DNA of 64,000 nucleotides from Magnetospirillum sp. ME-1. Lineage in GTDB: Bacteria; Pseudomonadota; Alphaproteobacteria; Rhodospirillales; Magnetospirillaceae. The stretch is from assembly GCF_002105535.1 (NCBI RefSeq), contig NZ_CP015848.1:434001-498000 (forward strand). The letters run 5' to 3'. Shown here piece after piece: positions 17,803-45,647 of the stretch. Each line of letters opens with the position of its first letter. The stretch's first letter is position 1. The position numbers and the translations under genes are program-made. Under the pieces are notes generated by a model. That model made no database searches, was not told the DNA's origin, and worked only from the letters and a program-made list of their open reading frames with translations.

Positions 17803-17845
17803 CTCGTGCTCCATCATCACAGAACAACCCGGAATTCTTTACCTT

Positions 17846-23266: not shown

Positions 23267-23294
23267 GCGATAGAGTCCATGGAGATTTTGCTGA

Positions 23295-25294: not shown

Positions 25295-25316
25295 GTGCTT
25301 GGCAGCGATCACCCGA

Positions 25317-26090: not shown

Positions 26091-26257
26091 TGTGCCCCCA
26101 ATTTCACTATGTCTACGGCTTGTCGCCGCTCAGAACCCTATCGATATTCACAAACAGATGCGATACCTTTATGACAGTCGTTTACCATTCATTTATCCAT
26201 TCAGTATGCCCATGAAGCCGTGTTCACAATCCATTCAATCTGGGAGAGGTGTCGGAG

Positions 26258-26797: not shown

Positions 26798-26811
26798 TCA
26801 GAGGCAGCCAC

Positions 26812-28122: not shown

Positions 28123-28144
28123 ACGATTTTGGTTTTCAATGTGA

Positions 28145-28660: not shown

Positions 28661-28677
28661 AAGTAAAGGAAATGTGG

Positions 28678-29529: not shown

Positions 29530-29542
29530 CTGGACGCCGCAT

Positions 29543-31105
29543 ATGGCAATCGTAGCCTCGTCCTCATTTGACGTTAATGCACTCGTCGCCATCGAAAATG
29601 CCGCGACAAGAAAGCTTATTGTTTCTGTGATGCGTGAGTGTGGCTTTGTCGTTCAGGAAGAAACAAAAGACATTAGTCACACGATGCTGCACCTTGAGCA
29701 TGGAAACGCATCAAACATAAATATCATCCTGTGCGATAAGCTTGGTGGAACTGGGCATCTAAAGGTTTTGAAGCATGTCCGCTGGGGAGAAGGGCCCCCC
29801 CCTCAATCCCTTCCCGTAATCGCCCTGGATAACCAGTGGACCGCCGATGAGCTAATCGCGGCAAGAGACGGGGGCATATCCGCTTCGCTCACCCTACCCA
29901 TAACCCGACATTCGCTTCAAATGGCGATCACGGCTGCAATGACTACGCAGAAGGCTTTTATTTCTTCTCCGGCCTTCCATGGGCCGGACAGACGCTCGGC
30001 GATTATGAAGGGCTACAAAGGGCCGTTTAGACGGGCGGATGATACCCTGACCCGCCGTCAAGAAGGCTCCCCTGTGATTGCTCCTTCCGCAGATCAGCGG
30101 CAGGTCAAGCCGCGAGGTAAGCCCCGAGAGGCAATAGCCCCTTCATCTTCGGTCGATATGAAGGCTGAAATTGGTTGGTCTACGGCGATTGCCACTGGCC
30201 GGGACGACATCGATGATCAACACCGCAAAATTATCGATTTCCTGAAAATACTCGGGGCAACTTCAAGTGCGGAGTATGAAAATAAGGCCGTCGATGACGT
30301 CATCGATGGGCTTTCAGATTATGTGAAAATGCATTTTAAGCACGAAGAGTCTCTCATGGACTCCTTTGATTATGATGAAAGAGATAAGCACAAACGTATT
30401 CATGCGGGCTTCGTTGAGAAGCTTGACGGAATCAATCGCGATGACCTTCATAATGGCAGCGGAAGTGAGAAACTATTCTTTATAATATATAATTGGCTTG
30501 TCACGCATATTGTTAGCATTGACCGCATCATGATCGCCAAGATGAATGGCGAATATGATGATGGCATTGGCAGCGAGACTGTACACAAGCAAACTGGCAT
30601 CGTGATAGAAAATGCGTATGAGTTAGCGGCAAGAATTATGAACGTCAACCTCCAGACAAGCTCAACGACAGATGATAGTCATAAAAAAAGGATACTGTAT
30701 GATATTTCGACATCAACAGAGAGATTGATTAACCTTATGGAGCTTGCGGATTCTCGTGTACAGGTGAGCGGATGCTCTAATTTTCAGCTTAAACGACTGG
30801 GCGAGATACGGCATGCACTGACGAAAAGTGCGGATTCTCTGGCCGTGACGGCTGCAAAAAAAATTGTACGGCTTTGCAGTGATATTTTGTCCGGCAAGCA
30901 GGGCATTCCCCTTGGGATCGGGGATATCTTGCGGCGACAAATGGGCCGGGTGGCAAGCTTGGCTGCGGTAATCGGTGGATTGGACGCTATGAGTTCCACC
31001 GCAAAATCAGCAGCCATCGAGGCAAATGAGTTGGCCGGGAAAATCTTGGAAATGGAACTCGGATCAGCCGCGTCTTTGCAGGACTTTGATATTGTCGAAA
31101 AATAG
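29543..31105 (+). CDS. Pseudo-receiver / GPDRR / hemerythrin / helical-domain protein
   Basis: The 520-aa protein starts with a receiver-like domain (10-135; NIILCDKLGGTGHLK at the phospho-Asp strand). A linker with paired GP-x-RR motifs follows (FHGPDRRSAIMKGYKGPFRR), then a hemerythrin (208-335; DDQHRKI, HFKHEESLM, DKHKRIH, THIVSIDRI, all ligands present). The C-terminal helical domain carries RLINLMELAD. The same linker and C-terminal domain occur at 40271, 42795 and 44352. It lies 13 bp after the hemerythrin-receiver gene, same operon. Confidence 0.82.
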   Translation: MAIVASSSFDVNALVAIENAATRKLIVSVMRECGFVVQEETKDISHTMLHLEHGNASNINIILCDKLGGTGHLKVLKHVRWGEGPPPQSLPVIALDNQWTADELIAARDGGISASLTLPITRHSLQMAITAAMTTQKAFISSPAFHGPDRRSAIMKGYKGPFRRADDTLTRRQEGSPVIAPSADQRQVKPRGKPREAIAPSSSVDMKAEIGWSTAIATGRDDIDDQHRKIIDFLKILGATSSAEYENKAVDDVIDGLSDYVKMHFKHEESLMDSFDYDERDKHKRIHAGFVEKLDGINRDDLHNGSGSEKLFFIIYNWLVTHIVSIDRIMIAKMNGEYDDGIGSETVHKQTGIVIENAYELAARIMNVNLQTSSTTDDSHKKRILYDISTSTERLINLMELADSRVQVSGCSNFQLKRLGEIRHALTKSADSLAVTAAKKIVRLCSDILSGKQGIPLGIGDILRRQMGRVASLAAVIGGLDAMSSTAKSAAIEANELAGKILEMELGSAASLQDFDIVEK

Positions 31106-31135
31106 CGAAACAGCAACGCCAGCCTTCGAGATGCC

Positions 31136-31576
31136 CTAATTACCCTTTGGGCAAACCCAGTCTCTGTAGTTCATGTCAAACTTCATAATATGATTAAACA
31201 GCCACATTCTTAAAAATTCGCTCATTTCGTTAAGTGATTGACGGTTGACCTTCCTCGACTTCGTGATGAAATAGGCTGATGCCATTTCCTCAAGCTGAGT
31301 CTTCAAAACGCGATGTTCTCTGGCGTGCATGTCGAAATATGGATACATGCACTCTCTTTGTATTTTTTCTTCTCTCTCAAAGTGCTCATGTGTGTAGGCG
31401 ATTAGCTGCTTCAGCGTCACATGCATCGCAGCTTCATTCTGCCCATTAACCTCCCCCTCTAATGTTTCGCATATTTTCGCAGTTACCAAGAATTGATTTA
31501 TTATGCTGATGAGCTTCTTATGATCGGCGTCAATAATCGGGTGTCCGATCATCATATCTTGCGTGAGCTTGAGCAT
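31136..31576 (-). CDS. Bacteriohemerythrin
   Basis: The 146-aa single-domain hemerythrin has diiron ligands in DADHKKL, HFEREEKI, MHAREHRVL and NHIMKFDMNY, all seven present. It is closest to the hemerythrin half of the protein at 28678. ATG 31576 is preferred because GAGGA lies just upstream; the frame is open to 31597. It is convergent with the operon ending at 31105 and downstream of a CheY-like gene on the same strand. Confidence 0.88.
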   Translation of the reverse strand: MLKLTQDMMIGHPIIDADHKKLISIINQFLVTAKICETLEGEVNGQNEAAMHVTLKQLIAYTHEHFEREEKIQRECMYPYFDMHAREHRVLKTQLEEMASAYFITKSRKVNRQSLNEMSEFLRMWLFNHIMKFDMNYRDWVCPKGN

Positions 31577-31643
31577 ATCGTCCTCGCTGCCGATCAAGCC
31601 GACATTCGCTGCGGTGTTCTATGCCCTACAGTCTTTTCGATCA

Positions 31644-31664
31644 CTTCCCTTTTTAAAGGGGAAG
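31644..31664 (-). terminator. Hairpin downstream of CheY-like gene
   Basis: CTTCCCTTT and AAGGGGAAG form a short near-perfect stem directly after the stop codon (31665-31667) of the minus-strand receiver gene. A T-rich run is incorporated, so it may act as a terminator. Confidence 0.45.
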
Positions 31665-32105
31665 CTACGCCAGCACCTTCTGAGGTGTTTTGGTCAGGGC
31701 TTCAGCAATTCCGGCGGAAAGTGAGCGAAGTGAGACGGGTTTCTTGACAAAAACGGTGACGCCCGCATCCAAAGCCGTTCTCTCGCATTCATCTTCTGTC
31801 CTGGCCGTAACCATGACGATTGGAACATCGGCATTAAAGCCATCAAGCCCGCCTGAACGGATCAGCTTGGTGCAGGCTATGCCGTCAAGCATGGGCATCA
31901 TCCAGTCGAGGAAAACGATATCCGTGCTGCCATCAGTCAATTCGCCGTCTTCAAGGCTGACGATGTTGGCGGCACCGAATGCGAGCGTACCATCCTCCAC
32001 TTCGATGACATCGAGGCAATGAAAGGAACCCAGAGCGATTCTGATCAGTTCCCGCATCGGCTTAGCGTCATCAACGACCAAGGCCCTTCTGATTCGTGGA
32101 AACAT
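31665..32105 (-). CDS. CheY-like single-domain response regulator
   Basis: The 146-aa protein is a lone receiver with a complete active site: acidic pocket ALVVDDAKPMRE, phospho-Asp in DIVFLDWMMPMLDG, the Thr in VMVTARTEDE, and Lys in VFVKKPVSLR. There is no output domain, so it probably signals by protein contact, as CheY does to the flagellar motor. It lies among oxygen-sensing and chemotaxis genes, but no CheA or CheW is visible in the window. Confidence 0.88.
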   Translation of the reverse strand: MFPRIRRALVVDDAKPMRELIRIALGSFHCLDVIEVEDGTLAFGAANIVSLEDGELTDGSTDIVFLDWMMPMLDGIACTKLIRSGGLDGFNADVPIVMVTARTEDECERTALDAGVTVFVKKPVSLRSLSAGIAEALTKTPQKVLA

Positions 32106-32473
32106 GGTTTTCTCACTTTCATCTTGGTTACGTTATACCAATCTGCGCTGACCGGAACCGATCATCGCAGAGCCCTCAAACGGCGGGCGGGCGCGAGCGC
32201 CCCAATCTTGCAGTCGCAGGGCCTTCCCCGCGCCGTAAGGCGCGCGCCCCCTTCCTTGGGCCTTATGTACGCCCTCCGCCTGAGCGTGGCCCTCCGGCCG
32301 CTTTGGCCGCTCGCTCAATGCTCGCCCGAGCATCGCGTCTCACATTTGAGGCACGACGCTCTAATTTGCGGCCATCAATCGGCACTTACCAATGAGTACC
32401 ACGTGCCCCAGAACAACAGCCAAGATATTCCATTATTGCTATTGAATGACTTCAATTGGCAGGGGGACGCCCC
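32106..32473. other. Intergenic region containing a palindromic repeat
   Basis: This 368-bp stretch has no convincing coding frame. It contains a full copy of the dispersed palindromic repeat (listed separately) and probably the promoter of the divergent CheY-like gene. The remainder shows nothing I can assign. Confidence 0.5.
32275..32376. repeat. Dispersed palindromic repeat, copy 3 (inverted)
   Basis: On the minus strand it reads AGAGCGTCGTGCCTCAAATG, TGAGACGCGATGCTC, then the conserved core GGCGAGCATTGAGCGAGCGG and AAGCGGCCGGAGGGCC. It is therefore an inverted copy of the elements at 20603 and 42163. The hairpin arms here carry a few mismatches. Confidence 0.8.
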
Positions 32474-32728
32474 TTACTTGTTTCCGAGAATCTTTCCCAT
32501 GGACACCAGGGTGAAGGGCCAGAGACGGACCAGCGGCACGACCGGCTTCAAACGCCCCTGCCGCGACCTTCTTCCCTGATTTCCACGCCACGTCTCAGGT
32601 TCAGGTCCAACTTGGCGAATTCAGATTCGACGATGGCGTGGCGGACCTCTGGTGGACCGGCCAGTCTTCTTGGCTTCCTTGGCAGGCTTGGGGGCGGTTG
32701 CGGGCTTGGAAGCCTTACGTGGCGGCAT
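32474..32728 (-). pseudogene. Degenerate short gene, possibly frameshifted
   Basis: An ATG at 32728 with a strong upstream AGGGAAGGGA starts MPPRKASKPATAPKPAKEAK and ends after 35 codons (stop 32621-32623). Other frames continue with protein-like sequence: PPEVRHAIVESEFAKLDLNL (about 32545-32655), and RLKPVVPLVRLWPFTLVSMG ending at a stop at 32474-32476. This pattern suits one gene broken by frameshifts, but chance open frames in GC-rich DNA are possible. Confidence 0.3.
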
Positions 32729-32748
32729 GACTATCCCTTCCCTGTTCA

Positions 32749-33161
32749 TCAGGTGGCTGATTTGGGCTTCCGGTTCGTCCGGGAATAGCCCAGCCCAACA
32801 GCTTTCGCAAACTCCGATCTGCGTGCGGCGTATTCCGGGGCGACGAGAGGGTAATCCCTGGGCAAAGCCCACTTGGCCCGGTACTCGTCGGCAGTCAGCC
32901 CATGCCCAGTCGTGAGGTGTCGCTTAAGCATCTTTTGCCGATCACCACATTCCAAACAGACAATGTAATCGGGGGTCACCGACCGCTTCACCGAAACGGC
33001 AGGTTGCTGCCGTTCAGCCGGTGCTGAAGCAGGGTTGTCCGTAGCGGCTAAAGTCGAATAAACGGACTTGATCAGGGTTGGGTTTCAGTGGCCGCCAAGG
33101 TGCTGCTGCTCAGGTAGGCGGCCACAATCTTAGTGGTCAGAGCCTTGATGTCATCGGCCAT
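32749..33161 (-). pseudogene. MucR/Ros-family zinc-finger regulator, frameshifted
   Basis: The N-terminal frame (ATG 33161) gives [20 protein letters not shown] followed by LAATETQP and a stop at 33072. The C-terminal frame, shifted by one base, continues LIKSVYSTLAATDNPASAPA and SVKRSVTPDYIVCLECGDRQ, then KMLKRHLTTGHGLTADEYRA, the Ros/MucR zinc-finger core, and ends at 32749. Joined, they make a normal-length MucR repressor (about 137 aa). A one-base loss in the ACCCAACCCTGATC region explains the break. Its start overlaps the end of the HU gene by 11 bp, so the two were co-transcribed. Confidence 0.82.
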
Positions 33162-33429
33162 TGATGGTGTCCTTGAGGCTCTTTCCGGCGGTGAATTTGG
33201 CAGACTTGCTGGCCGCGATGGTGAGGGTCTTGCCAGTCTGCGGATTCCTGCCTTCACGTGCAGGACGGGCAGAAACCGAGAAAGTTCCGAAGCCAACCAG
33301 ACGCACATCATCACCGGACTTCATGGCGGTGGTGATGGCTTCAAATACGGCGTCGATAGCACTTCCCGCGTCGGCCTTGGTCATGTTGGCACCATCGGCG
33401 ACGGCATTGATCAATTCAGACTTGTTCAT
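33151..33429 (-). CDS. HU/IHF-family DNA-binding protein
   Basis: The 92-aa histone-like protein has typical HU features: [40 protein letters not shown] and [20 protein letters not shown]. It binds and bends DNA as a dimer. Start ATG 33429 follows GGGGAG; the frame is open to 33489. It lies immediately upstream of, and overlapping, the broken mucR. Both are nucleoid or regulatory proteins often found on mobile regions. Confidence 0.93.
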
Positions 33430-33499
33430 GTGCTCCCCCCTACAAAAAGCATGGCTATAACGAATGGCACGACGAATAGGCATCGTCAACCAAACGGTT

Positions 33500-33588
33500 T
33501 TACTCAGGTGTCAGCAAGGTAAACAGGAAAGTCGAGCCGCCTGAAGGTGATTGCTCAACCCAAATCTCGCCGCTATGCGTTCCCAAAT
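33500..33588 (-). pseudogene. C-terminal relic of a second histidine kinase
   Basis: Directly after the stop of the intact kinase, the minus strand encodes VDLGTHSGEIWVEQSPSGG followed by [11 protein letters not shown] and a stop (33500-33502). This is the extreme C-terminus of a HATPase_c domain ('HGG.IWVES.PG.GSTF.FTLP'). It is the last 30 codons or so of a different kinase whose body is gone. Confidence 0.75.
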
Positions 33589-34884
33589 CTACACCGGCAG
33601 TGTGAACCTGAAGGTGGCTCCATGCCCAGGTTCTGACTCCACCCAAATTTGCCCACCATGCTGCGTGATGATCCGCTTGCAGATCGCAAGTCCAACGCCA
33701 CTTCCTGGATATTGATTTCCAGCATGGAGCCGCCGGAAAATCTCAAAAATATCCTGGGAGGTGTCTGCAATGCCGATGCCATTGTCGCGGACAGCAATCT
33801 GCCATTTGCCGTCTTTCTGCTCAGCTTCAATGGATATTACAGGCTTACGGTCAGGATGGCGGAACTTGACAGCGTTGCCGATCAGGTTCTGAAACACCTG
33901 CATCAATTGGACATCATCGCCGATCACCTCGGGAAGCTGGCCCACAGTGATTTCCGCGTGATTCTGGGCAATGACCTCTCTGAGATTATCCTGTGCCGCT
34001 GAACATGCAGCCGTCAGTGAGATGCGGGAGAACGAGACACCTTTTGCCGAAACTCTGGAAAATGCCAAAAGGTCGTTGATCAGCAGCCCCATCCGCTTTG
34101 CTGCACCTACGACGAATTCAAAATTTTCTCGGTCTTCCGGTGGAAGCTTGTCGCCCAGATGGCGATCCAGCAATTGTGCAAAAGAGACGATGGTTCTCAG
34201 TGGCTCTTGGAGGTCATGAGATGCGACATAGGCAAAGCGTTCCAATTCCGTATTGGATGCCATCAAGCGTTCGACCAGTTCTTTCTGCTCGGCTTCGTGC
34301 TGACGATGACTTGCCTCCAGGTCCATTCGGTCCAAGGCAAATGAAATTTCATCGGTCATCTCCGTCAGAAGTTCGATGAGGTCGTCAGTAAAGAATTCCG
34401 GAACATCTGAGTAAAGTGACAATGTACCAATAGTTTTTCCCTGATTTTTTAGTGGAAATGCGGCCGATGAATTAAAATTAAAGAACGCCGCTCTCTTCTG
34501 CCAAGGTGCTGTTATCTGGGTTCCAAAGAAATTTTCAGCAACGCGGTGCTCGCCAGCACGAATGCATTGTCCTGATGGCCCTTGCCCATAAGGACTATCA
34601 GCATCAGCGGACACTTTCAGGCCATCTAAATAGGCAATCCCCTCACCAGCCCAAGCTACTGGAACTATTGCTCGGCTCGCGTCATCGACCACGCCAATCC
34701 ACGCCATGCGAAAATGCCCGAAATCCACCGAGATTCGAACGATGGCATCAAAGAGTTCCTGGCGGCTTTTGCTGCGAATGATGGCCTTGTTGGTTTGGCT
34801 CAAAGCCGCATAAATATCCGTCAAGTGAGCAATCTTAACTGTGGCCTCCTTGTGCGAACTCATATCTCGACCGACATTTCCCAT
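33589..34884 (-). CDS. GAF-domain sensor histidine kinase
   Basis: The 431-aa (from ATG 34884) soluble kinase has an N-terminal GAF domain (about 30-165; RMAWIGVVDDASRAIVPVAW). A HisKA dimerisation domain follows with phospho-His in YVASHDLQEPLRTIVSFAQL. The HATPase_c domain shows the N box (NLIGNAVKFRHPD), G1 (VRDNGIGIADT) and G2 (YPGSGVGLAICKR). No membrane segment. The longer frame (to 34989) would begin inside the adjacent IS element, so the native start is 34884 or 34863. The IS may have removed its promoter. Confidence 0.88.
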   Translation of the reverse strand: MGNVGRDMSSHKEATVKIAHLTDIYAALSQTNKAIIRSKSRQELFDAIVRISVDFGHFRMAWIGVVDDASRAIVPVAWAGEGIAYLDGLKVSADADSPYGQGPSGQCIRAGEHRVAENFFGTQITAPWQKRAAFFNFNSSAAFPLKNQGKTIGTLSLYSDVPEFFTDDLIELLTEMTDEISFALDRMDLEASHRQHEAEQKELVERLMASNTELERFAYVASHDLQEPLRTIVSFAQLLDRHLGDKLPPEDRENFEFVVGAAKRMGLLINDLLAFSRVSAKGVSFSRISLTAACSAAQDNLREVIAQNHAEITVGQLPEVIGDDVQLMQVFQNLIGNAVKFRHPDRKPVISIEAEQKDGKWQIAVRDNGIGIADTSQDIFEIFRRLHAGNQYPGSGVGLAICKRIITQHGGQIWVESEPGHGATFRFTLPV

Positions 34885-34916
34885 ATGGGCGGCGTATTCG
34901 CCCCTGACTGACGTCA

Positions 34917-36490
34917 GAATAGCCAAATTCCGGCCCAACCGGAAGGCGTGATGGCGCGGTGATAGCCGCCACCGCAGCAAAATCGCCACCTTGACCGCCA
35001 GGGTCGGCTCCTGCGGCGCGATTCCAGCCCATTTTGCAACGTAGCGGGCGCATTTCGCCTGCCTTCCGCCCCGTGCCGTCTCTCCCAGTCGTCAGCATGG
35101 CGCTGGCTCTCTTGGTCGCAGAGCGTCGATCATGTCGAGGATGCGCCGGAACAGGTCGCGCGGCACAGTGACCTCGGCCATCTGGAAGATGGCGTAGCGG
35201 GCGTGGGCGATCACCTTCGCGCCGATCTTGACCACCTTTTCGCGGATGGTGGTCAGTGACCAGCTTTCCATTTCGTCCGGCAGGGCCAGGGTGCGCAGGA
35301 AGTTGGACAGGTTGTAGGCCAGCGCGTGAAGCTGGAGCCGGACGGCGTTGGCCTTCATGGTGCGACAGGACAGGCGGGTCCACTTCACCGCATTCTTGCC
35401 CTCCTTGATGTACTGCTCCGCCGTGCCACGCTGGTTGTAGAAGGCGACGACACGAGGGGCCGGGCGGGTCAGGTTGGTGACGATGAAGCCGACGCGGAGA
35501 TACAGTTCGCCGGGATGCCATTCGACCTTGGCGACCACGCGGCGTTTCCGGTTCCATGACTTGGCCTGATAGCTGAAGCTGGCGTAGAACCGCTGGACAT
35601 GCTTGGGTGGACGACCGACCGGACGCTTGAGCAGATGGGCGACGTGGCCCTGGAGGACCGCGTTGGCTTTGAGGCGGATAGTGTACTTGTAGCCCTCGGC
35701 CTCCAGGTAGTCGTACAGGTCGGGCAGGGCGAAGGCCGCATCGCCCCGGAAGAATCGCCGCTTGGTCCTGTCCCGATACCGCCCCACCACCGGCTCCAGC
35801 ACCGAGCGCCAGTCGTCGGCGCTGTGGACGTTGCCGGAGCGAAGGGCGCAGCGTTCGAGGTCGCCGAACTGGTTGAAGACGAACAGCGGGTGGTAGCAGG
35901 TGCAGCCGAAGTGGCCGTTGTAGGCGGTGCCCTCCTGCTCGCCGTGGGTGGGACTGACGCTGCTGTCCATGTCCAGCACCACCACATCGGTCGGGCGGCG
36001 GGCATGAACGGCGTCGATCCATTGCCCCGAAAGGTCGGCCAGGGCGGTGAGGTTGGCCTTGCCGGTCAGCACCTCGATCTCGAACCGCCCCATCTGGCTG
36101 GTGGACGCGGCTTCCTTGGTCACTGCCCGACCGCCGACGATCCAGCGCATCGCCGGATCATGGCCGAGGCGGTCGGCGTCGTTGACATCTTCGTACCCGG
36201 CAAGCCGACCGAACACTGACTGCCGGAACTGGGCGATCATGGTGTGGCGGTGGTTCTTGCCGGTCCTGCTGTCGGCCAGCACCTGCCCGGCCATCTCGGT
36301 CAAACCGAGGGCATCATCGAGTTCACGGAAGGCGAGCAACCCGGCGTCGGACGTGACCTTGGAACCGTGGAATTCCAGCTTCAGACGGCGGTCGAAGGCG
36401 ACCCGAAGATCAGCCGATTCCGCTTCACCCGCCGCCATCTCCATATCCAGCCACTCCATCAGCCGACAATACGTTGATTTGTATAGCAGA
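34917..36490 (-). mobile_element. IS1380-family insertion sequence
   Basis: A GC-rich segment encloses the IS1380-type transposase (35092-36459). Boundaries are approximate: the left end lies near 34917, just upstream of the kinase start, and the right end near 36487, just before the stop of the PAS sensor gene. AGAAT occurs at both proposed edges (about 34915 and 36488) and may be a target duplication, but I could not define terminal inverted repeats with certainty. Confidence 0.7.
35092..36459 (-). CDS. IS1380-family transposase
   Basis: The 455-aa DDE transposase has IS1380 features: the N-terminal KLEFHGSKVTSDAGLLAFRE, the first catalytic Asp in VVLDMDSSVSPTHGEQEGTA, the FFRGDAAFALPDLYDYLEAE region with the second Asp, and a C-terminal region AVRLQLHALAYNLSNFLRTL. 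It appears intact. The element splits a group of sensor genes on the same strand. Confidence 0.93.
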   Translation of the reverse strand: MEWLDMEMAAGEAESADLRVAFDRRLKLEFHGSKVTSDAGLLAFRELDDALGLTEMAGQVLADSRTGKNHRHTMIAQFRQSVFGRLAGYEDVNDADRLGHDPAMRWIVGGRAVTKEAASTSQMGRFEIEVLTGKANLTALADLSGQWIDAVHARRPTDVVVLDMDSSVSPTHGEQEGTAYNGHFGCTCYHPLFVFNQFGDLERCALRSGNVHSADDWRSVLEPVVGRYRDRTKRRFFRGDAAFALPDLYDYLEAEGYKYTIRLKANAVLQGHVAHLLKRPVGRPPKHVQRFYASFSYQAKSWNRKRRVVAKVEWHPGELYLRVGFIVTNLTRPAPRVVAFYNQRGTAEQYIKEGKNAVKWTRLSCRTMKANAVRLQLHALAYNLSNFLRTLALPDEMESWSLTTIREKVVKIGAKVIAHARYAIFQMAEVTVPRDLFRRILDMIDALRPREPAPC

Positions 36491-36497
36491 ATCGCGT

Positions 36498-37622
36498 TCA
36501 GACGTCACGAGACTGGGAGGTCATCTGGGAAATCCGGGCTCGAACAAAAGCCACATCAAATTCCTGCCCCTCATGGGAGAGGTAGTTTGCCGATATTTCG
36601 ACCGGAAGCGTCGATCCGTCTTTGCGTTTCAAAGTTGCATCAAATCGCAGGAATCTTTCTTCTTTTAAAGAACGCCAATGCTCCGCCCATTTTTCACGAG
36701 GGTGGTCCGGATTTAATTCAGATGCATGTAGATTCAACATCTCTCTCTCATCATAACCTAAAAGCGAACATGCAGAATCATTCACATATGAAATCAACCC
36801 AGATTCATTAATCCAGTAAACAGGTTCCTCCGCTCGCTCTATTGAGAATTGAGTTATTAAATGCCGTATAGTTAATAATTCATGCTTCCGAATATGTGAT
36901 TTACCTATGCCCCACATCAAGCCAATTCCAGACATCACCAGAGCCCAGAAGATTGCATGGTTTAAAGCTAATCTTTTGATCTCCGTTGACGCAATTTCAT
37001 TGGATTTCTCCAATGGAATGGTGACATCAATACCTCCTCGCAGGTCGCCAACCTTGTAGCCCTGATCGCCGTGACAAGTTAGGCAGGATTGCTCGACGCG
37101 GATTGGTGCCATAACACGGACAGCCGCTTTTCCGTTGCTCAGAACCTTTTCAGTTACCTCTGTCTCACCCTGCTCCAAAAGCAGAAGAGCCTGATGCTCC
37201 CATTCATCCGGGGCGTTCTCCGGATTGAGGGGCTTCATGCTCGTAATTCGTCCCTTGGCAACAAATCCCGACTGCATCAGTTGACGCAGCACGTATGCAG
37301 GATTCATCAAGGTCAGGTGTTTGCCGTTCGTGGTTACAACATCACGGTCGGGGACATTCAAATACGGGTTTGGGGAAGTTTGGGCGTCAGGAGCCACATA
37401 TACTCCACCATGAGATGCGACCCAATGGCGGAAACCAATATCTGTTTGCACGCTGGTTCGTGCCTCTTGAACTGCCAAACGCACTGCTTGCTGCCTTTCG
37501 TTTTCAGCCGCCATCCAAAACGAAAGCAAGACTGCCGCTGTCCATAATGCAGCAGACCCAACCATTAGCCTTCGAAATGATAAAACTGAAATTGCAGCAT
37601 TTGGTTGTGCAGCGGAGGTCAT
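36498..37622 (-). CDS. DUF3365 heme-sensor / PAS protein, probably truncated by the IS
   Basis: The 374-aa membrane sensor has an N-terminal helix (about 20-40) and a periplasmic DUF3365 (Tll0287-like) domain with a c-type heme site CLTCHGD (about 178-182). A second transmembrane helix lies at about 222-242 (ALNHAIFWALVMSGIGLMWG). A cytoplasmic PAS domain follows (260-370; VYWINESGLISYVNDSACSL). It stops right after the PAS domain (FVRARISQMTSQSRDV), about 10 bp from the IS1380 edge, where a kinase or cyclase output domain would be expected. ATG 37622 follows GGAG. Confidence 0.8.
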   Translation of the reverse strand: MTSAAQPNAAISVLSFRRLMVGSAALWTAAVLLSFWMAAENERQQAVRLAVQEARTSVQTDIGFRHWVASHGGVYVAPDAQTSPNPYLNVPDRDVVTTNGKHLTLMNPAYVLRQLMQSGFVAKGRITSMKPLNPENAPDEWEHQALLLLEQGETEVTEKVLSNGKAAVRVMAPIRVEQSCLTCHGDQGYKVGDLRGGIDVTIPLEKSNEIASTEIKRLALNHAIFWALVMSGIGLMWGIGKSHIRKHELLTIRHLITQFSIERAEEPVYWINESGLISYVNDSACSLLGYDEREMLNLHASELNPDHPREKWAEHWRSLKEERFLRFDATLKRKDGSTLPVEISANYLSHEGQEFDVAFVRARISQMTSQSRDV

Positions 37623-37884
37623 AGGCAAATACTCCAGCACGTAAGCCTGTCCGACTAAAGCCCTTCACGCAGCAAAGGTATCATGCCTATTTCAAAAGCC
37701 ATATACCGCCAAGTTACCTACCAAGATTTCGGCTCTGCCCTCATGCATTGATCGGCCAATGTCTCCCGGATGTGGTATTCACCTAATCAGCTATATCTGG
37801 ATGGATATTTCCCGCCCATCCCCAAAATCCGTCCAGCATGATTAGGTGGTAGAGTTCTCGCCCGTTCGCCACCGCAGATCTGTT

Positions 37885-38112
37885 TTACGGTTCGTTCCGC
37901 TTCACAGGAACGACCACGAAGAACTCTTGATCATTCAACGTTCCAACCGACACCATCAACGTCTCATGCTGGTTCACGAGCCGGGCATGGGGGACACCAT
38001 CGACCGCCGTCCAAAGGCGGGACACCTCCCAGACTTTCCTGGTGTGGTCATTTGCCTTTGTGAATCTGTCACCGACTTGGATGGGTGGAGTTTTTCGCCC
38101 GAATATTGCCAT
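37885..38112 (-). CDS. Small conserved-type protein, unknown
   Basis: The 75-aa soluble protein contains IQVGDRFTKANDHTRKVWEV and VPHARLVNQHETLMVSVGTL. This beta-rich pattern resembles short hypothetical proteins of Rhodospirillales, but has no assigned function. ATG 38112 is chosen by position; no clear ribosome-binding site is seen. The frame extends upstream to 38175. Confidence 0.45.
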   Translation of the reverse strand: MAIFGRKTPPIQVGDRFTKANDHTRKVWEVSRLWTAVDGVPHARLVNQHETLMVSVGTLNDQEFFVVVPVKRNEP

Positions 38113-38340
38113 TGTCGCCCGAAATGATTGCCTGCGTTCGTCCTGCTGTATCTCGAATCGCTTGGATTTGTCCAAAAAACTTTCGATCCTCGGACAGCGT
38201 GTGCATTGCCATCACGTCACAGGCCAGGAAATTGAACCGGGCGCCCAAGGGCCAGTTCGCCGGCACGATCGCTTAGGTTGAAATAATAGGCCACCGGCAA
38301 ACGACACATCCATCCAGGCCCCCTTGTCGGACTGGAACCG

Positions 38341-38607
38341 TCATTTGCGCCACATCCAGCCCTTCAATCGCGCGGACATTGCCGGCGGCATCCGCAACCG
38401 AATCCGGGTTCCCGGCCCCATGGCGCGCTGGACCGCATGATGAACGAAAAGTATGCACAGCGCCCCCACCGCGATCGCGACGAAAAGATGCACGAACAAG
38501 ATCGCAACCGTCAGGCCAATGGCCACGACCAAAAGCAGCCGAAGCCATCCTGCGGAATTTACCGCCCGGCGAATCTCCTCGAAGCCGAAAGCATTATTAT
38601 GCGCCAC
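38341..38607 (-). CDS. Small membrane protein, unknown
   Basis: The 88-aa protein starts at GTG 38607, preceded by GGGGAGAA. It has two adjoining hydrophobic segments (LRLLLVVAIGLTVAILFVHL and FVAIAVGALCILFVHHAV) and a basic C-terminus (RLKGWMWRK). It is probably an inner-membrane protein of unknown role. An upstream ATG (38688) in the same frame has no good ribosome-binding site. Confidence 0.5.
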   Translation of the reverse strand: MAHNNAFGFEEIRRAVNSAGWLRLLLVVAIGLTVAILFVHLFVAIAVGALCILFVHHAVQRAMGPGTRIRLRMPPAMSARLKGWMWRK

Positions 38608-39021
38608 ACTTCTCCCCTTTCGATTGCGAGCCCCGGTAAAAGCCGCATGGCCCCATGAATTGGGCCCCATACGGGCGGGGCTCGTCAAACGATTGTTGCA
38701 TCCTTGGAGATATGTTGCCGCCCATCAAATATTGCGACTTATTTTTATTCTCTGCCCTTGGGCCGATTCATGCTACAGTTAGTGATCGAATTCGAGATGA
38801 TTCGCCCCGCGGGAGACGCCGCCGATGCCGTTTCCCCAAGGTTCGGGCCGTTTCCCCAAGGTTCGGATCGGAAGCCTCGCGGCTTTGGAATGCAGCTTGG
38901 ACTTTGGCCGGATTTGCCGGCGATCCCGGTTGACTTTTGGTCGCGCTGGCTGACTATGTGACTCTGGCATGGGGTATTGCCGTAGTTGGGCCGCCCGTTC
39001 AAGCAGGTCGTGAGACGAGGA
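38608..39021. other. Intergenic region with a short tandem repeat
   Basis: This 414-bp stretch is without a convincing gene. It contains a direct repeat of CCGTTTCCCCAAGGTTCGG (about 38827-38867, two units) and an AT-rich patch near 38730-38750 that could be a promoter for the following hemerythrin gene. Nothing else recognisable. Confidence 0.45.
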
Positions 39022-39500
39022 ATGAACCAGACCAATCCGCTCCCCGAATGGACCGATGATTTATCCGTGAACGTCGAAATTATCGACGAAGATCATCAGG
39101 CGTTCTTTCGCTTGGCAGCTCTGATGAGCGACGTGACCTCCACGCCCGACAACGATCAGCCCTACCTCATCGAAACCTCCATCAATATCCTCGAGGAATA
39201 TATCGAGGGGCACTTCCTGCGCGAGCAAAAGGCCATGGCCAAGGCCGACTACGCCTATCTGGTCGAGCAATCGCGGCGCACGACGCCTTTGCCGACCGAG
39301 TAACCCGCATCATTCAGGACTACCGCCAGACGGGCAGTATCGAAAAGATCGGCACCCTGGCGCATTTGGTCACGGATTGGCTGAACAACCATATCCGGGT
39401 GGTGGATGCCCAATACAAAGGGATCTTGACCAACGCGAATGTGGATGACCGCCCCCTGGTGTATATGGCTGCAGGCCTGGACACCGAGCTTGTCTCATAG
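39022..39500 (+). pseudogene. Bacteriohemerythrin, frameshifted
   Basis: The first frame encodes the N-terminal half (IDEDHQAFF, HFLREQKAMAKADYAYLVE) and stops at 39301-39303. The second half (AHDAFADRVTRIIQDYRQTG, NNHIRVVDAQYKGIL, VDDRPLVYMA) continues in another frame to the stop at 39498-39500. The break lies at about 39266, within GTCGAGCAATCGCGGCG, near the third/fourth-helix ligand histidines. Restored, it would be a normal 158-aa hemerythrin similar to 23295 and 28145. Confidence 0.85.
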
Positions 39501-39654
39501 CCAAAGGCAAGAAAGCCCCCCGTCGGCATATGCTCCTCCTTCGGGCTTGGGGATAAGCCGGGCCGTCGTGCGCAAGGACGGCCCGGATGGGATTGCCGAT
39601 CCCGACGGGTTCAGACAGAATGGGCCTGTCCGCGTCAGCACAAGGTCCTGAGAG

Positions 39655-40221
39655 ATGGCGCATCCTTCGATACTGTCCGTAGCGCTGGCGAACCTGCAGA
39701 AATCCCATGAATTTCTGCTGAAAATTCTGGACGCCTGCGGCAACATCCCCGGAGCCCCCGGCGCGGCGTCCGATCAGGAAATGATGGCCGCTATCGCCCA
39801 TCTGGCGCATTTGACCGAATCCGTGATTCAGGAGGGCGAATTTGCCCGCGAGAACGGCGGCGACTTCGTGGCCGCCGACATCTTTTCCGAAACAGCCCGC
39901 GACACCCAGGCTTCCCTTGTCCAGGCGCCACCCGCCGACAATAAAATGCTCCGCCTCCAGGTCATCTTGCAGATATGCCTGGAACAAAGCGAACGGAACT
40001 GGCTCCAGGCCAAGCGGCTGAAATCCGAAAACGCCGCCCTGCGGCGCGGCATGAAGCAGGTCGCCGCCGATGTGGCCGCCGCCCGCTCGATGCTGCCGCC
40101 GGTCGCTGCCGCCGCCCCCCGATCAGCCCCGGTCCCCATCACGGCGGCAAGACCGTCGCCCGCGGCAACGCCCGTGACGGTGACGCGGCTGGCCGGACAG
40201 CAGAAACTTCGGCTGAAATAG
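39655..40221 (+). CDS. Helical protein with Ala/Pro-rich tail, unknown
   Basis: The 188-aa soluble protein is predicted mostly helical (NLQKSHEFLLKILDACGN, LQVILQICLEQSERNWLQAK) and ends in a disordered Ala/Pro/Val tail (AAAAPRSAPVPITAARPSPA). No membrane segment. It lies between the broken hemerythrin and the split pseudo-receiver gene. I do not recognise the family. Confidence 0.6.
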   Translation: MAHPSILSVALANLQKSHEFLLKILDACGNIPGAPGAASDQEMMAAIAHLAHLTESVIQEGEFARENGGDFVAADIFSETARDTQASLVQAPPADNKMLRLQVILQICLEQSERNWLQAKRLKSENAALRRGMKQVAADVAAARSMLPPVAAAAPRSAPVPITAARPSPAATPVTVTRLAGQQKLRLK

Positions 40222-40270
40222 GGGCTCGGCGCCGAACTCGCCGACCGCCCCGCCCCGCCCACGGCCCTGA

Positions 40271-41524
40271 TCAAGCCTTCTCCCCCCCCCTCTCCCCACG
40301 CGAACGCAAAAGATCGGCAACCCCGTTCTGGCTTGCCACCCCGTCATTCGCCTCGGCGGGCGGACGAAACCGGCTCGCCCCGCGCTTGCTGCGCTTGTTG
40401 CGCGTCAGATCGGCCAATTCAAAATGTTCCGCCTCCATTTTCTGGAGCTTCCCGATTCCCTCCCAGGCGGAATCCAGCTTTCGCTTCATGGTTTCGTCGG
40501 CTTTGCGTCCGCCCAGAACCGCGACGATTTCCTCCACCGAGGCCAATCGCTCCTGCAGAAGGTCGCCGCCTCCCAGGGCGATTTCTCCGCCGTTCAGATA
40601 CTTCTCCATATCGGCGATGATCGCATCCAGCCTACCGACGGACATTTGCCGCAAGATGCCGATGAACAAAGCCTTCATCGCCCCGATCTTCTGCCGCAGC
40701 GGATTGTCCTGGCCGCGATGGGAACCTTTGTTCAAATCCACCAGGGTGACGAGGTTCACCAGCCTATCTGCCGCCTCCATGATCTCGGCGCGCACGACCT
40801 TGCGCGTCCGTTCATCATCGGTGGCATGCAGGGCTTCCTTCAGATGCTCGATTCTGGCGGCGATTTCGCTCACGCCATTGAAGATGATGGATGCCTGGGA
40901 ATTGGGATCCTCCCCCACGACGGCCGGCGCATGCGGTCGGCGCGGGGCCAGGCCCAGCTCCCCGGTATGGCCCTTGGCGGCAAGCTTGCGGGGGGCCGGA
41001 GACGGAGACGGCAATTGCGTCGCGCCGTCCTGGCGGTCGGCAGCGCGACGGAACGGCCCTTCGTAAAGGCCCGGAGCGAGATTGCGGCGGCAAGGCCCCC
41101 GAAAGGTCGGGTTGGCGATGAACTCGCGCTTTTCATTCAAGGCGCGATTGACGTTTTTCAGCATGCTGCGCGTGCTGATGGGCAGGGTCATGACTCAATT
41201 GGCCCCGGAATTGCGCATCATGGACAGATTGCCGACATCCATGTGACTGATGACGCAAATCATCGGCCCGGTCACGACGCCTTCGGGGGTTTCCATTCTG
41301 ATGCGCCGAATCATGTCGAGCGGTTCGTCGATATCGGTACCGGCGCAAACGATCAGGTCATAGATGCCGGACGCGGCGAACTTGATCGCTTCGGTCAGGA
41401 TGCCCGACTTCAAAACGTCGGCAAATCCAATCTGATGCAAGGATGTCGCGATCAAGCTGCAAAGCGAATCGTCCGAGGCCACGACCATGCATGCCTTGCC
41501 TAAGAAGGAGGTATTCAATGACAT
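40271..41524 (-). pseudogene. Pseudo-receiver / GP-x-RR / helical protein interrupted by in-frame TGA
   Basis: From ATG 41524 (AAGGA upstream) the frame encodes a receiver-like domain (KACMVVASDDSLCSLIATSL, YDLIVCAGTDIDEP) and stops at TGA 41197-41195. The same frame resumes with VMTLPISTRSMLKNVNRAL, then IANPTFRGPCRRNLAPGLYE with GPFRR, and the helical C-terminal domain (ADRLVNLVTLVDL), ending at 40271. Paralogues at 42795, 44352 and 29543 read through this point (AGASGFATLPLTLRG in one). A single nonsense codon therefore splits an otherwise intact 417-codon gene; an internal ATG at 41191 could start a shorter protein. Confidence 0.82.
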
Positions 41525-41754
41525 TCCACGATCCTTGGCCCCACGCGCGCTCCGCATCCCAGGAAATAAAGAACCAGCCGATGAAAACGGAAAAAGCCAT
41601 TCCGTGCTAGCCTGTATCCGATAAATAGGCATTGAAGCATGGTTATGGCCGGGTTATCAAACCCCTTGCGAATTGAAGGGGGCATACGGCAACCTTAACG
41701 CCTGGGGCCGAGGCTTACGCCAAGTCCGGTATTCGGCCAAGACAGGAGACAAGG

Positions 41755-42165: not shown

Positions 42166-42247
42166 CGTCGTGCCTCAAATATGAGGCACGACGCTCAGGC
42201 GAGCATTTAGCGAGCGGCCAAGCGGCTGGAGGGCCGCGCTCAGGCAG
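42163..42247. repeat. Dispersed palindromic repeat, copy 4
   Basis: A perfect hairpin AGCGTCGTGCCTCA-AATA-TGAGGCACGACGCT begins at the stop codon of the XRE gene. The core GGCGAGCATTTAGCGAGCGG and AAGCGGCTGGAGGGCCGCGC follows. It has the same orientation as the copy at 20603. The hairpin could also serve as a terminator. Confidence 0.82.
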
Positions 42248-42274
42248 AGGGACGGACACTAGCCGCCGCCCCCC

Positions 42275-42628
42275 TCAAGACGGATTCTTGCGGTGCGGCA
42301 CCACCGCCGTATTGGGGCGGCGGCGGATCATCAGGGCGAAACCATCGCGCACCCGGGTCAGGACGCGAACCGTCGCCCGCTCGGCCCCCGCCATCCGCTT
42401 GAAGACCTGATAGGCTCGCCGCCGTCCGCTGCCCGGCCCTACCTGGGCATAGGTTCTGAACCGTGCGTTCCGGACCACGCGACGCCCGAAACGGGTCCGG
42501 AGAAAGGCCAGCAGCAGGCCGTTCTTGGCCAACCAGGCGACGAGAATCACCATGGCGTGCGCGAACACGCCTTTGATGAGAACTCCGAACAGAAACAATA
42601 AAATACCGGCGATGATCGCTGTCAGCAT
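42275..42628 (-). CDS. Small membrane protein with basic tail, unknown
   Basis: The 117-aa protein begins with one or two hydrophobic helices (LTAIIAGILLFLFGVLIKGV, FAHAMVILVAWLAKNGLLLA) and continues with a strongly basic region (RFGRRVVRNARFRTYAQVGP, MIRRRPNTAVVPHRKNPS). ATG 42628 follows GGAAAG. It is probably an inner-membrane protein with a cytoplasmic basic tail. Function unknown. Confidence 0.55.
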   Translation of the reverse strand: MLTAIIAGILLFLFGVLIKGVFAHAMVILVAWLAKNGLLLAFLRTRFGRRVVRNARFRTYAQVGPGSGRRRAYQVFKRMAGAERATVRVLTRVRDGFALMIRRRPNTAVVPHRKNPS

Positions 42629-42794
42629 AGCCGCTTTCCAAACCCATGGGCCGCGCCGAGATCCCCGGGCGAAAGCACCCGGTCTCCATAGGCCGGGGCA
42701 AACCGTCGGCAATCATAGCCGAAGGGGAAAAATACGTCATCTTCTATGGTTCGGAAACGGGGCCGATCGCGCCGAATTCGGCGCCGAAACCGGA

Positions 42795-44024
42795 TCAGCG
42801 GCCCGCAGGCCCAGAACGGCCGGACGTCTGCGACTTCGGCGAGCGGGCGGTGTCGAACTGCGGCAAGGGCAACACCCCTGCCTCGATTTCCTTCACCTGG
42901 GCCACGATGCCTTGGGCTTTCTTGACCGCGTCCTTGACCTCGCTGTCGAGCATGTCGATGCCGCCGCGGACATTGATCAGGAATTGGGCATAGCTCATGC
43001 GAGCCTGCATGGCGCGACCGATATTGAAAGACAGTCCGGCACGCCCGGACAAAATGTCCTCGCCGGACTTGATCAGCCGGGAAAGGTGGGCGCGCAGAAG
43101 CGATTCCGCGCTGGCATCCACCGATTTGCGGATAATGCGCAGACGCTCGATATCCGCCGCGGAGCAGCCGTGCTGCTCGATGCGCATCTGCGCCAGCGCC
43201 ATGAGGTTGATAAGGCGCTCTTCGGCATCGGCCACCGCCGTGGTCAGAGCCCCCTGCGCCTCGGCGCCGGTGGTGGTCACCAACCGCGCCAGAAGCTGCT
43301 CGATCAGGCGGGCGGTGACGAAGGCCTTGTCGATCACCGCGCGGGTCTGGCGGTCGCCCCCTTCGTCCTCCTCGGCCTCATCCGCCCTGGGACGCGCTGG
43401 CGCCGCGAAAGAGCCCCTCTGCGGCGCGGCCGCCGCCATTCCGGGCACCGGCGGCAAGGAACGCTCTCCCTGCAATTCCTGCCGGATGGCCCGCCGTTCC
43501 GATTTCTCGACCGCCTGATTTAGCTGCTCGGCGATGCGGTCCTCGGCCCGGCGGAACGGTCCCTGGTGACCCTTGGATGACCGGCGACGACGACAGCCGC
43601 CGCGATAGGTGGCGGTGGAAATGAAAGGCCGCTTGCCGTCCATGGCGGATAAAAGCTTCGCCTGCACCGCCATCAGCGAGGTCGGCATGGCGATGACCTC
43701 GCAGATTCCGGCCTCGCGGGTTTCCTGAAGCAGTTCCGGCGTCCAGTCCCGGCCCAGGCTGATGATGGGAAGCGTATTGGCGGGAGCGGACATTTCCCAA
43801 CGGACAAAGCGAGCGATGGCAATGCTCCCGCCGCCCGGTACGTCGTTTTGGGAGATGATCAGGTCGATAGAGGGATTGGCGCGAAGGGCATGCGCTACCC
43901 CTCCGACATCGGAAAGATATTCGACATCATGCATCTTTACCCCAAGCAACAACTCACGCAGCACCCTGCGCAGGCCGCCGTCTGCGATAACAACAAGGCC
44001 CTTACAGGCAGCAAATGGCTTCAT
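42795..44024 (-). CDS. Pseudo-receiver / GP-x-RR / helical-domain protein
   Basis: The N-terminal receiver-like domain (1-125) of this 409-aa protein lacks a phospho-Asp at the expected strand (DLIISQNDVPGGGSIA). The paired linker motif STATYRGGCRRRRSSKGHQG-PFRR comes next, followed by a variable linker and a helical domain with ERLINLMALAQMRIEQHGCS and KSGEDILSGRAGLSFNIGRA. The C-terminal domain aligns with the one at 29543 (RLINLMELADSRVQVSGCSN, SDILSGKQGIPLGIGDILRR). No hemerythrin here. Role unknown; probably a signalling or scaffold protein of the same system. Confidence 0.78.
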   Translation of the reverse strand: MKPFAACKGLVVIADGGLRRVLRELLLGVKMHDVEYLSDVGGVAHALRANPSIDLIISQNDVPGGGSIAIARFVRWEMSAPANTLPIISLGRDWTPELLQETREAGICEVIAMPTSLMAVQAKLLSAMDGKRPFISTATYRGGCRRRRSSKGHQGPFRRAEDRIAEQLNQAVEKSERRAIRQELQGERSLPPVPGMAAAAPQRGSFAAPARPRADEAEEDEGGDRQTRAVIDKAFVTARLIEQLLARLVTTTGAEAQGALTTAVADAEERLINLMALAQMRIEQHGCSAADIERLRIIRKSVDASAESLLRAHLSRLIKSGEDILSGRAGLSFNIGRAMQARMSYAQFLINVRGGIDMLDSEVKDAVKKAQGIVAQVKEIEAGVLPLPQFDTARSPKSQTSGRSGPAGR

Positions 44025-44351
44025 CTTGAGGATCTACCCCTTTTCGAACGCCACCGATCAGGTGTGTATCGAAGCATTGCCAAGGCCGCAGCACAACCCT
44101 CGAATTATGAGATTTACTGGCTATTTTTGCGCCGAGGTTGAGCTGGCCAGCCGGGCCATTCCATCTTTCGAACACGATTTCCTCGCCTCCCATGGACTCG
44201 GCACATCATACGGAATAAGCTTGCCACCAAGCGACCCCTCCTTCGGCGTACCGAGAGATGAGGGCGAGGGAATGGGGCAGACACACCGAATTCTCCACTG
44301 TATCTACCACCCCTTCATTAAATACAATTCCGCCGTCTTATGAGTTAATGC
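44025..44351. other. Divergent intergenic region between two pseudo-receiver paralogues
   Basis: This 327-bp AT-richer region presumably holds the promoters of the divergent genes at 42795 and 44352. I see no repeat, operator or small gene that I can support. Confidence 0.4.
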
Positions 44352-45647
44352 ATGTTGACTCTACCATCACTTAAGAACCTTGCATGCCTTCTGATTTCAT
44401 CAGACAAGAAAAAGCGCCGTCTACTGGCCGACGTTCTTAATCAGATTGGAATTAGTGTAATTCACGAAACTGATACGGTTGAACATGCCACTTTACAGCT
44501 TCGTTACACCACCATCGATCTCGTCATTTGGGCGGAGGCCGGCGATGGTCACATCGACCTGCTGAAGCATATCCGGCGCGACTTGTCCCCCAGAGCCCGG
44601 ACGGTTCCCTTCCTGTGCGTCACGGAAGGATGGGATAATGAGCGTCTGACCCGAGCCCGGGATGCCGGTGCCTCCGGCTTCGCCACCCTCCCCCTCACTC
44701 TGCGGGGGATGCTGAAAGCCGTCTCGGCGCTTCTCACCGACTCGCGCGAATTCATCAATTGCGGCGGCTATGCCGGTCCCGACCGCAGGCGGAACGATCT
44801 TCCCAACTACCAGGGACCGCGTCGCCGCGCCACCGATGGGACGGCCCCGCGCCCGGCGGCGGAAACCGCGCCGCCGAAACCGTCCGCCGCCGCCCGGCCC
44901 GAAAATGCCGCCGAGGCGCCGAGCGGCGCGACCGCCGAGACGCCAAGCCGGCCGCCGTCCAAAGCCACCGCCGGAATCGGCATGGCCGCAACATCCGGCG
45001 GCGGCCGAGGCCCCGATATCGAGCATCTGCCACCGTCCAACCGCCGCGTCCAGGTTGTCCAAGAGGCCCTGCGCATCTCTCAAGAGCTTCAAGCCCTGCT
45101 TCACGACCCCGCCGAGGAAAACGCCAAGGCGAAGATCAGCGACCATTTCAATCGTCTGATGAACCTCATGGGGCTGGTCCACGGCTATTGCCGGGAGGAA
45201 GGCGAGGCAGGGTCCTTCTTCAAGAAGAAATACGCCGAGATCATGCGGACCGTCAGTAAGTTCTCGTTGGGAATCCTGGCCTCCGGCCTCGAACGGACCG
45301 TCCAGGAATCGTCTCGGATCGTCGATGGAACCACCCCCGCCGCATTGGGAGCGTCGTCGAAGATCTTTTACAAGATGTCCGAATTCGACACCTTGATCAC
45401 AATGCTCGGCGGCTACCCCTCGCTCTCCCTCGACCTGTTGGAGATGATCAAGACCGGATGGCAGAACGTGCTGTCGCTGACGGCCCGAGACAATACCCTC
45501 AGCGAGCTGGAAAAGGATGACGCCGCACCGCTGAAGCTTGTGGCCGCCAAGCGACTGAACGATGCGGATGTAATCTTGCAAGAGCGCCGCGCCGCCGATT
45601 CCCAAGAGGCCGCCTTCCAGCGCCTCAACCAATCGCCAACAGCGTAG
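44352..45647 (+). CDS. Pseudo-receiver / GPDRR / helical-domain protein
   Basis: The receiver-like domain (8-125) of this 431-aa protein has ACLLISSDKKKRR at the first strand and LVIWAEAGDGHIDLL in place of the phospho-Asp strand, so it probably cannot be phosphorylated. The linker NCGGYAGPDRRRNDLPNYQG-PRRR has the paired GP-x-RR motif. A disordered Ala/Pro stretch (160-225) and a helical domain with NRLMNLMGLVHGYCREEG follow. It is divergent from its paralogue at 42795 and is the last gene before the mamAB operon end (mamV, convergent). Confidence 0.78.
   Translation: MLTLPSLKNLACLLISSDKKKRRLLADVLNQIGISVIHETDTVEHATLQLRYTTIDLVIWAEAGDGHIDLLKHIRRDLSPRARTVPFLCVTEGWDNERLTRARDAGASGFATLPLTLRGMLKAVSALLTDSREFINCGGYAGPDRRRNDLPNYQGPRRRATDGTAPRPAAETAPPKPSAAARPENAAEAPSGATAETPSRPPSKATAGIGMAATSGGGRGPDIEHLPPSNRRVQVVQEALRISQELQALLHDPAEENAKAKISDHFNRLMNLMGLVHGYCREEGEAGSFFKKKYAEIMRTVSKFSLGILASGLERTVQESSRIVDGTTPAALGASSKIFYKMSEFDTLITMLGGYPSLSLDLLEMIKTGWQNVLSLTARDNTLSELEKDDAAPLKLVAAKRLNDADVILQERRAADSQEAAFQRLNQSPTA

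Follow-up and report, generated by a model that had tools for sequence, protein, structure and literature searches.

Architecture of the family proteins

The window analysed here is a stretch of 64,000 nucleotides from Magnetospirillum sp. ME-1 (bases 434001-498000 of a 4,551,873-base contig), a strain whose magnetosome island (MAI) was reported at 422080-519743 (PMC5571398; here and below, statements on published work refer to excerpts of the sources). Among its products are several proteins that the original prediction, made from the sequence alone, had described as a paralogous family of pseudo-receivers with a GP-x-RR linker and a conserved helical C-terminal domain (CTD). It was found that four of them (29543, 40271-41632, 42795 and 44352, designated members 1 to 4) are true paralogues with a common plan, in which a CheY-fold N-terminus is followed by two GP-x-RR motifs (one of them GG-x-RR) and by a helical CTD of ~170 residues. 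The 23295 protein, which had been counted with them in part, has no CTD, the likeness of its C-terminus to this domain being rejected by sequence comparison (hhalign 0.1%). The proteins and their parts are:

29543..31105, plus strand: member 1 (520 aa), pseudo-receiver, two GP-x-RR motifs, hemerythrin and CTD
30170..30538, plus strand: hemerythrin of member 1, with a complete diiron-ligand pattern (TIGR02481, E 1.4e-28)
30575..31090, plus strand: CTD of member 1
40271..41632, minus strand: member 2, pseudo-receiver, two GP-x-RR motifs and CTD; split open reading frame (ORF), probable start 41524
40433..40912, minus strand: CTD of member 2
42795..44024, minus strand: member 3 (409 aa), pseudo-receiver, GG-x-RR and GP-x-RR motifs, CTD
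42873..43370, minus strand: CTD of member 3, five predicted helices
44352..45647, plus strand: member 4 (431 aa), divergent from member 3 and adjoining mamV; pseudo-receiver, two GP-x-RR motifs, CTD
45012..45506, plus strand: CTD of member 4
23295..24674, plus strand: hemerythrin-receiver-GPERR protein, associated and outside the CTD family

Two points of anatomy amend the earlier description: a complete hemerythrin precedes the CTD of member 1, and the 40271 gene is interrupted by an in-frame TGA at 41195-41197, its copy at another locus (L104) being open. The linker was recovered as described, with two motifs in each of the four members. It appears to be more general than the CTD family, because in the product of L043:964-2010 a GPDRR motif follows a canonical-looking receiver and precedes what is, by eye, a probable cyclic nucleotide-binding domain.

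The hemerythrin of member 1 resembles the bacteriohemerythrins (TIGR02481/PF01814), since it exceeds the TIGR02481 cut-off (99.5 bits versus 51.75) and presents the full H, HxxxE, HxxxH and HxxxxD diiron-ligand pattern. However, it is placed between the putatively dead receiver and the CTD, and members 2-4 have no such domain. The same ligand pattern was observed in 17 of 20 relatives tested, those of L091, L096 and L115 missing the strict spacing. Hemerythrins are abundant in ME-1, in which about 50 of the 63 genome matches to member 1 (E<=10) fall on its hemerythrin.

The receiver and its phosphorylation pocket

AlphaFold2 models of members 1 and 3 were of modest overall confidence (pLDDT 71.2 and pTM 0.40 with 23 sequences for 29543; pLDDT 75.2 and pTM 0.42 with 17 sequences for 42795). 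In the latter, the receiver (residues 1-130) reached a pLDDT of 81-90 per ten-residue block and the CTD (219-384) mostly 83-95, while the two-motif linker scored low and, judging from the model, is probably flexible. The predicted models show a CheY fold for the family receiver, in Foldseek and VIA comparisons of member 3 and in a Foldseek comparison of member 1; the rows shown are all receiver matches and uninformative on the CTD.

The pocket was compared in a MAFFT alignment of 34 family receivers (30 from other loci and four from the window), E. coli CheY and the other receivers of the window. None of the 34 presented Asp in the Asp12 column, an outcome for the acidic pair that depends on the alignment, and in members 2-4 an Asp sits one position beyond the Asp13 column. 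No Lys was found in the Lys109 column of the 33 receivers that reach it, the split member 2 stopping short. The Asp57 column is occupied by Ala in the 44352 and 40271 groups, by Gln in the 42795 group and by Leu in one divergent copy (L097:7843-9006), and Asp is retained in the hemerythrin group, including 29543. Thus, the altered phospho-Asp that had been proposed for the whole family holds for three subfamilies and not for that of member 1. Since none of the 33 copies aligned at that column retains the conserved Lys, the receiver is, as far as sequence can tell, probably dead, that is, switched off, although one subfamily keeps Asp. Phosphorylation of the family receivers therefore seems unlikely, this being least certain for 29543.

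In comparison with CheY-like receivers (PF00072), the family keeps the fold, but the Lys109 and Asp12 positions are replaced throughout the alignment, Asp57 is lost in three subfamilies, and the receiver is joined to an unnamed helical domain. The acidic pair, acceptor Asp and conserved Lys of a phosphorylatable response regulator are consequently not found as a set.

The helical C-terminal domain

The R-L-x-N-L mark by which this domain had been recognised is invariant in the CTDs of members 1-4, and R, N, L and G are invariant across 20 diverse CTDs. The statement that it belongs to no named family also stood: no family of Pfam or NCBIfam scored over its cut-off, and a PDB sequence search with the CTD profile returned chance-level matches only (best eIF2B delta, E 0.12). 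Sub-threshold Pfam matches were set aside, namely RMI1_C in L111 (18.2 bits, cut-off 27), Baculo_VP39 in L021 (15.8 bits, cut-off 25), PF01717, matched by a single protein out of 23 members (E 0.0011), and further matches at E 0.04 or worse. A degenerate hemerythrin was rejected on sequence (hhalign 0.2%), as was the phosphatase CheZ (PF04344; hhalign 0.2% against three CheZ proteins of ME-1), which is also a chemotaxis protein and has four matches elsewhere in this genome, but shows no profile similarity to the CTD.

In the excerpts of open-access literature searched, no description of the family was met. Mgr4109, Mgr4115 and Mgr4152 of MSR-1 were reported as expressed and magnetospirilla-specific (PMC3197154), and they may or may not be family members. 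Altogether, the CTD proteins form a genuine domain family for which the libraries searched hold no description, and members 1-4 are signalling-type proteins of a known kind, with a probably dead receiver and, in member 1, a hemerythrin, in which the helical domain is new. Two hemerythrin-CTD proteins (L025:919-2535 and L026:690-2231) carry an extra C-terminal stretch of ~190 aa, for which Pfam gave no identification in the L025 protein, the one tested.

Distribution, selection and decay

The order was surveyed in 317 genomes, with thresholds of E<=0.001 for the CTD and E<=1e-30 for MamK; at most 11 first-look candidates per genome were scored for the CTD, so that weak copies were possibly missed. 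A CTD match was found in 37 genomes and MamK in 36. In 25 genomes, the fetched sequences showed the CTD joined to a receiver and/or a hemerythrin, and 24 of these genomes encode MamK, which gives 24/36 MamK-positive versus 1/281 MamK-negative genomes. The one MamK-negative genome among them, G011, has an assembly of 80% completeness, in which MamO gave no match either. The association had Fisher P values of 4e-26 in the order, 8e-13 within the family (20/21 versus 1/34) and 6e-7 when stratified by genus, all of them optimistic owing to relatedness and physical linkage.

In even samples of the class (2/385) and of the phylum (2/398), the CTD was limited to the genome of the window and a single other member of its family, and within the order two further families have it (G175, G185, G186 and G191; G313, G314 and G316). 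A scan of named genomes with one peptide pattern, which is no census, recovered 21 loci, of which 14 come from records with a strain name (Paramagnetospirillum, Magnetospirillum and 'Terasakiella sp. PR1'); the other seven belong to metagenome assemblies, and two of these carry the label uncultured Magnetospirillum. The multi-domain form is thus almost confined to magnetotactic bacteria, and the distribution of the family is narrow and informative. Stand-alone CTD genes of MamK-negative genomes were seen in L033 and L034 near ORFs resembling, by eye, ABC transporters and cytochrome oxidase subunit II.

A quick tree was built from 67 CTD rows, near-copies (>90%) and partial CTDs being left out; it has 22 open forks, long branches (L139, L128, L029, L137 and L134) and a midpoint root only. 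In this tree, 17 stand-alone CTDs separate with an SH-aLRT of 98 from the remaining 50, of which 47 are multi-domain, and the architecture labels require eight changes versus a shuffled mean of 34. One reading is that the stand-alone gene was already present in Rhodospirillales and that the fused forms expanded in magnetospirilla. Since the ratios of nonsynonymous to synonymous substitution (dN/dS) are 0.11-0.32 across the four members, the family genes are under purifying selection. The values were 0.11-0.13 for 29543 (third pair saturated), 0.23-0.32 for 40271, 0.14-0.28 for 42795 and 0.18-0.27 for 44352, against 0.11-0.15 for mamT/U/V, with dS above 1 in several pairs; members 2-4 are looser than the mam genes.

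These data bear on the main rival to the role in taxis proposed below, according to which the family is gained and lost with the magnetosome island as passenger genes that serve ordinary oxygen or redox signalling unrelated to magnetotaxis. Many copies are indeed found within mam clusters or close to them, ME-1 is very rich in hemerythrins, and there are lesions in member 2 of the window and in L092, where the member-1 orthologue of 'Terasakiella sp. PR1' (L092:6007-7559) consists of two 258-aa ORFs in different frames. However, sequence constraint is clear, multi-domain copies occur in only one MamK-negative genome (G011, 80% complete), and several MamK-positive genomes hold copies far from mamK. 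We take G039, G021 and G043 to be AMB-1, MSR-1 and XM-1, respectively. The distant copies are those at 2.38 and 3.62 Mb in AMB-1, 2.75 Mb in MSR-1 and 2.96 Mb in XM-1. Of the two in AMB-1, that at 3.62 Mb shares only 38% identity with member 2 and is an old paralogue, while that at 2.38 Mb is recent (97%). This explanation is judged rather unlikely, while being the strongest of the alternatives. The second MamK-like gene of G039, at 424.8 kb, falls where the AMB-1 islet was reported (421600-450000; PMC2818848). A copy on another PR1 contig (L084) is 93% identical to that of the window, and the genus label of PR1 may be doubtful for this reason.

Gene neighbourhoods

Member 1 closes a tight plus-strand run of five genes (PAS 26249, methyl-accepting chemotaxis protein (MCP) 26794, hemerythrin 28145, hemerythrin-receiver 28672 and 29543), with spacings of -4, 22, 11 and 13 bp. 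Its first four genes are:

26249..26797, plus strand: PAS protein, Amb0995/CetB-like, opening the run (Pfam PAS; 4-bp overlap with the next gene)
26794..28122, plus strand: MCP, Amb0994/CetA-like, with a signalling domain and no sensory domain by Pfam (MCPsignal)
28145..28660, plus strand: bacteriohemerythrin (Pfam; 22-bp gap)
28672..29529, plus strand: hemerythrin with an intact receiver (Pfam; pocket D, D, D, S, K; gaps of 11 and 13 bp)

The same order was found in L105 (AMB-1) and L083, and a second order, PAS-MCP-23295-29543, in L110 (AMB-1, 2.38 Mb), L113 (XM-1, 2.96 Mb), L084 and L087. Directly upstream of 23295, an 81-bp near-copy (23191-23271) of the MCP 3' end (28047-28127) is an apparent rearrangement scar, consistent with the second order having once existed here. 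Amb0994 adjoins the PAS protein Amb0995 (PMC12442639), and the PAS-MCP pair of the window is of this type; the L105 pair would be exactly amb0994/0995, given its place inside the AMB-1 island at 997403-1095895 (PMC2818848). In comparison with the bipartite CetBA/Amb0995-Amb0994 chemoreceptor (PMC12442639, PMC6056624), the pair heads the member-1 run and the family proteins are additional downstream components, none of which is described in the excerpts of these two studies. In both L083:931-1468 and L084:1914-2481, the PAS gene of Amb0995 type is divided between two ORFs that overlap, possibly through a frameshift. The co-occurrence with hemerythrin and PAS-MCP genes that had been suggested was therefore found in the window and at other loci; small hemerythrins also lie near family genes in L106, L108, L109, L118, L119, L120 and L121, a proximity uncorrected for background, hemerythrins being common in such genomes.

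Members 3 and 4 are divergent neighbours adjoining mamV in seven loci (the window, L098-L102 and L104), and in L106, from another family, a receiver-CTD/hemerythrin-CTD pair lies ~3.5 kb beyond mamT-like ORFs. Such places, the tracking of MamK by the family and the CTD of member 3, predicted to be all-helical with helices of 18-37 residues, would suit a magnetoskeleton scaffold, in which CTD helices would assemble on MamK or the magnetosome chain, the dead receiver would be a structural cap and taxis would be beside the point. However, the hemerythrin fusions and the receptor gene run suit sensing better, twelve MamK-positive genomes have no multi-domain forms, and magnetosome biosynthesis was wild-type-like in MSR-1 after a ~100-kb MAI deletion with a mam cassette (PMC7908775). 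The scaffold role is considered improbable.

As for the wider make-up of the window, the G+C content is 47-58% per 2-kb bin at 22000-40000 and 60-69% in the remaining bins. A near-identical second mam block (mamB, Q, A, P, O and a mamE/mamJ-like pair) occupies 11340-19597, and the mamEJOPAQRB duplication of ME-1 was already published (PMC5571398). An insert at 34871-36538, with a transposase-like ORF (35092-36459, labelled by eye), interrupts a sensor kinase gene whose halves are at 36498-37640 and 33589-34989 and which is a single 792-aa ORF in the AMB-1 island. A hemerythrin at 38986-39303 is shortened to 105 aa, the AMB-1 copy having 171 aa and 99% identity across the first 95.

Proposed role in magneto-aerotaxis

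It is proposed, with a probability of about 0.4, that members 1-4 act as phosphorylation-independent signalling adaptors alongside chemoreceptors in magneto-aerotaxis. What suggests this role is the pocket, altered as described above, together with the full diiron-ligand pattern of the hemerythrin, the gene run shared with the receptor, the link to MamK and purifying selection. The adaptors would be partly O2-binding and would serve magneto-aerotaxis rather than biomineralisation. The hemerythrin of member 1 may bind O2 or report redox state and thereby change the neighbouring CTD, through which the proteins may assemble with one another or dock onto the receptor array. The dead receiver would present an unchanging surface to which a partner from chemotaxis or the magnetoskeleton could bind, and members 2-4, having no hemerythrin, would join the same complex as partner subunits. 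A more ambitious version, in which the O2-gated hemerythrin-CTD protein and its dead-receiver partners would join the MamK filament and the Amb0995/Amb0994 receptor in one lineage-specific, phosphorylation-free complex, reading oxygen and chain position or torque upstream of CheA, is speculative and unlikely.

Published work on the receptors can be read both ways. In AMB-1, an interaction of Amb0994 with MamK was reported, and strains deleted for amb0994 had altered U-turns and unchanged magnetosomes (PMC6056624). The strongest oxygen-taxis phenotype was that of CetBA2, CetA2 being 42.1% identical to Amb0994 (PMC12442639), which favours adaptors working beside such receptors. The amb0994 deletion was a replacement by a gentamycin cassette, with a complemented strain reported (PMC6056624), and downstream genes, including the 29543 orthologue, were possibly affected by this replacement.

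Several observations weigh against the proposed adaptor role. AMB-1 lacking amb0994-0995 showed no disruption of aerotaxis, which would also suit passenger genes, and no MCP deletion in MSR-1 impaired magnetic alignment, according to the excerpts of the same study (PMC12442639). In the window, members 2-4 are near mamV and do not adjoin a receptor gene. Family members decay, as exemplified by the TGA in member 2 of ME-1 and the two-frame orthologue in L092. With a shift of one residue in the pocket alignment, one acidic position would be regained in members 2-4, but the Lys would still be missing. Moreover, 11 MamK-negative genomes, in which the matches to MamO were all weak and protease-like (E 6e-15 or worse), carry only stand-alone CTDs in open frames of ~190-300 aa; the CTD itself is thus not about magnetotaxis, and it is the multi-domain forms that track MamK. 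Finally, those forms are absent from 12 of the 36 MamK-positive genomes (G012, 89% complete and with stand-alone CTDs only, and eleven without any CTD match), and magnetotaxis in general can therefore do without them. The dedicated module of the original prediction is limited accordingly, and its wording 'signalling or scaffold' is still a matter of interpretation.

The hemerythrins beside mam genes, with their complete ligand pattern, also raise oxygen or iron control of magnetite formation, in which hemerythrin members would supply or sense O2 or Fe for biomineralisation, and in MSR-1 anoxia was reported to raise the expression of several hemerythrin genes (PMC9549626). However, ~73 kb of MAI content proved irrelevant to magnetosomes in the complemented MSR-1 deletion (PMC7908775), and two MAI hemerythrin-like genes gave no phenotype, a result that would suit passenger genes as well and for which 23 homologues elsewhere could compensate (PMC3197154); some family members may lie outside these deletions. 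The content removed by the ~100-kb deletion included a putative aerotaxis-related gene, and other MSR-1 deletion strains were slightly impaired in motility, as were their parents (PMC7908775). These results speak against a role in biomineralisation, which is thus very unlikely, and leave taxis unsettled.

Significance for magnetotactic bacteria

The dialogue between the magnetosome chain and chemotaxis is disputed, in that the Amb0994 work in AMB-1 supports active sensing, whereas the MSR-1 deletions do not. The family adds to the receptor run of the Amb0994/0995 type conserved genes that could carry part of that function and that might be affected by insertional amb0994 deletions. It also provides a domain not described before in the literature searched, whose distribution is defined and whose paralogues are distinct enough to be knocked out in two tractable strains. 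If the proposed adaptor role is true, the family may help to steer magnetotactic bacteria by oxygen.

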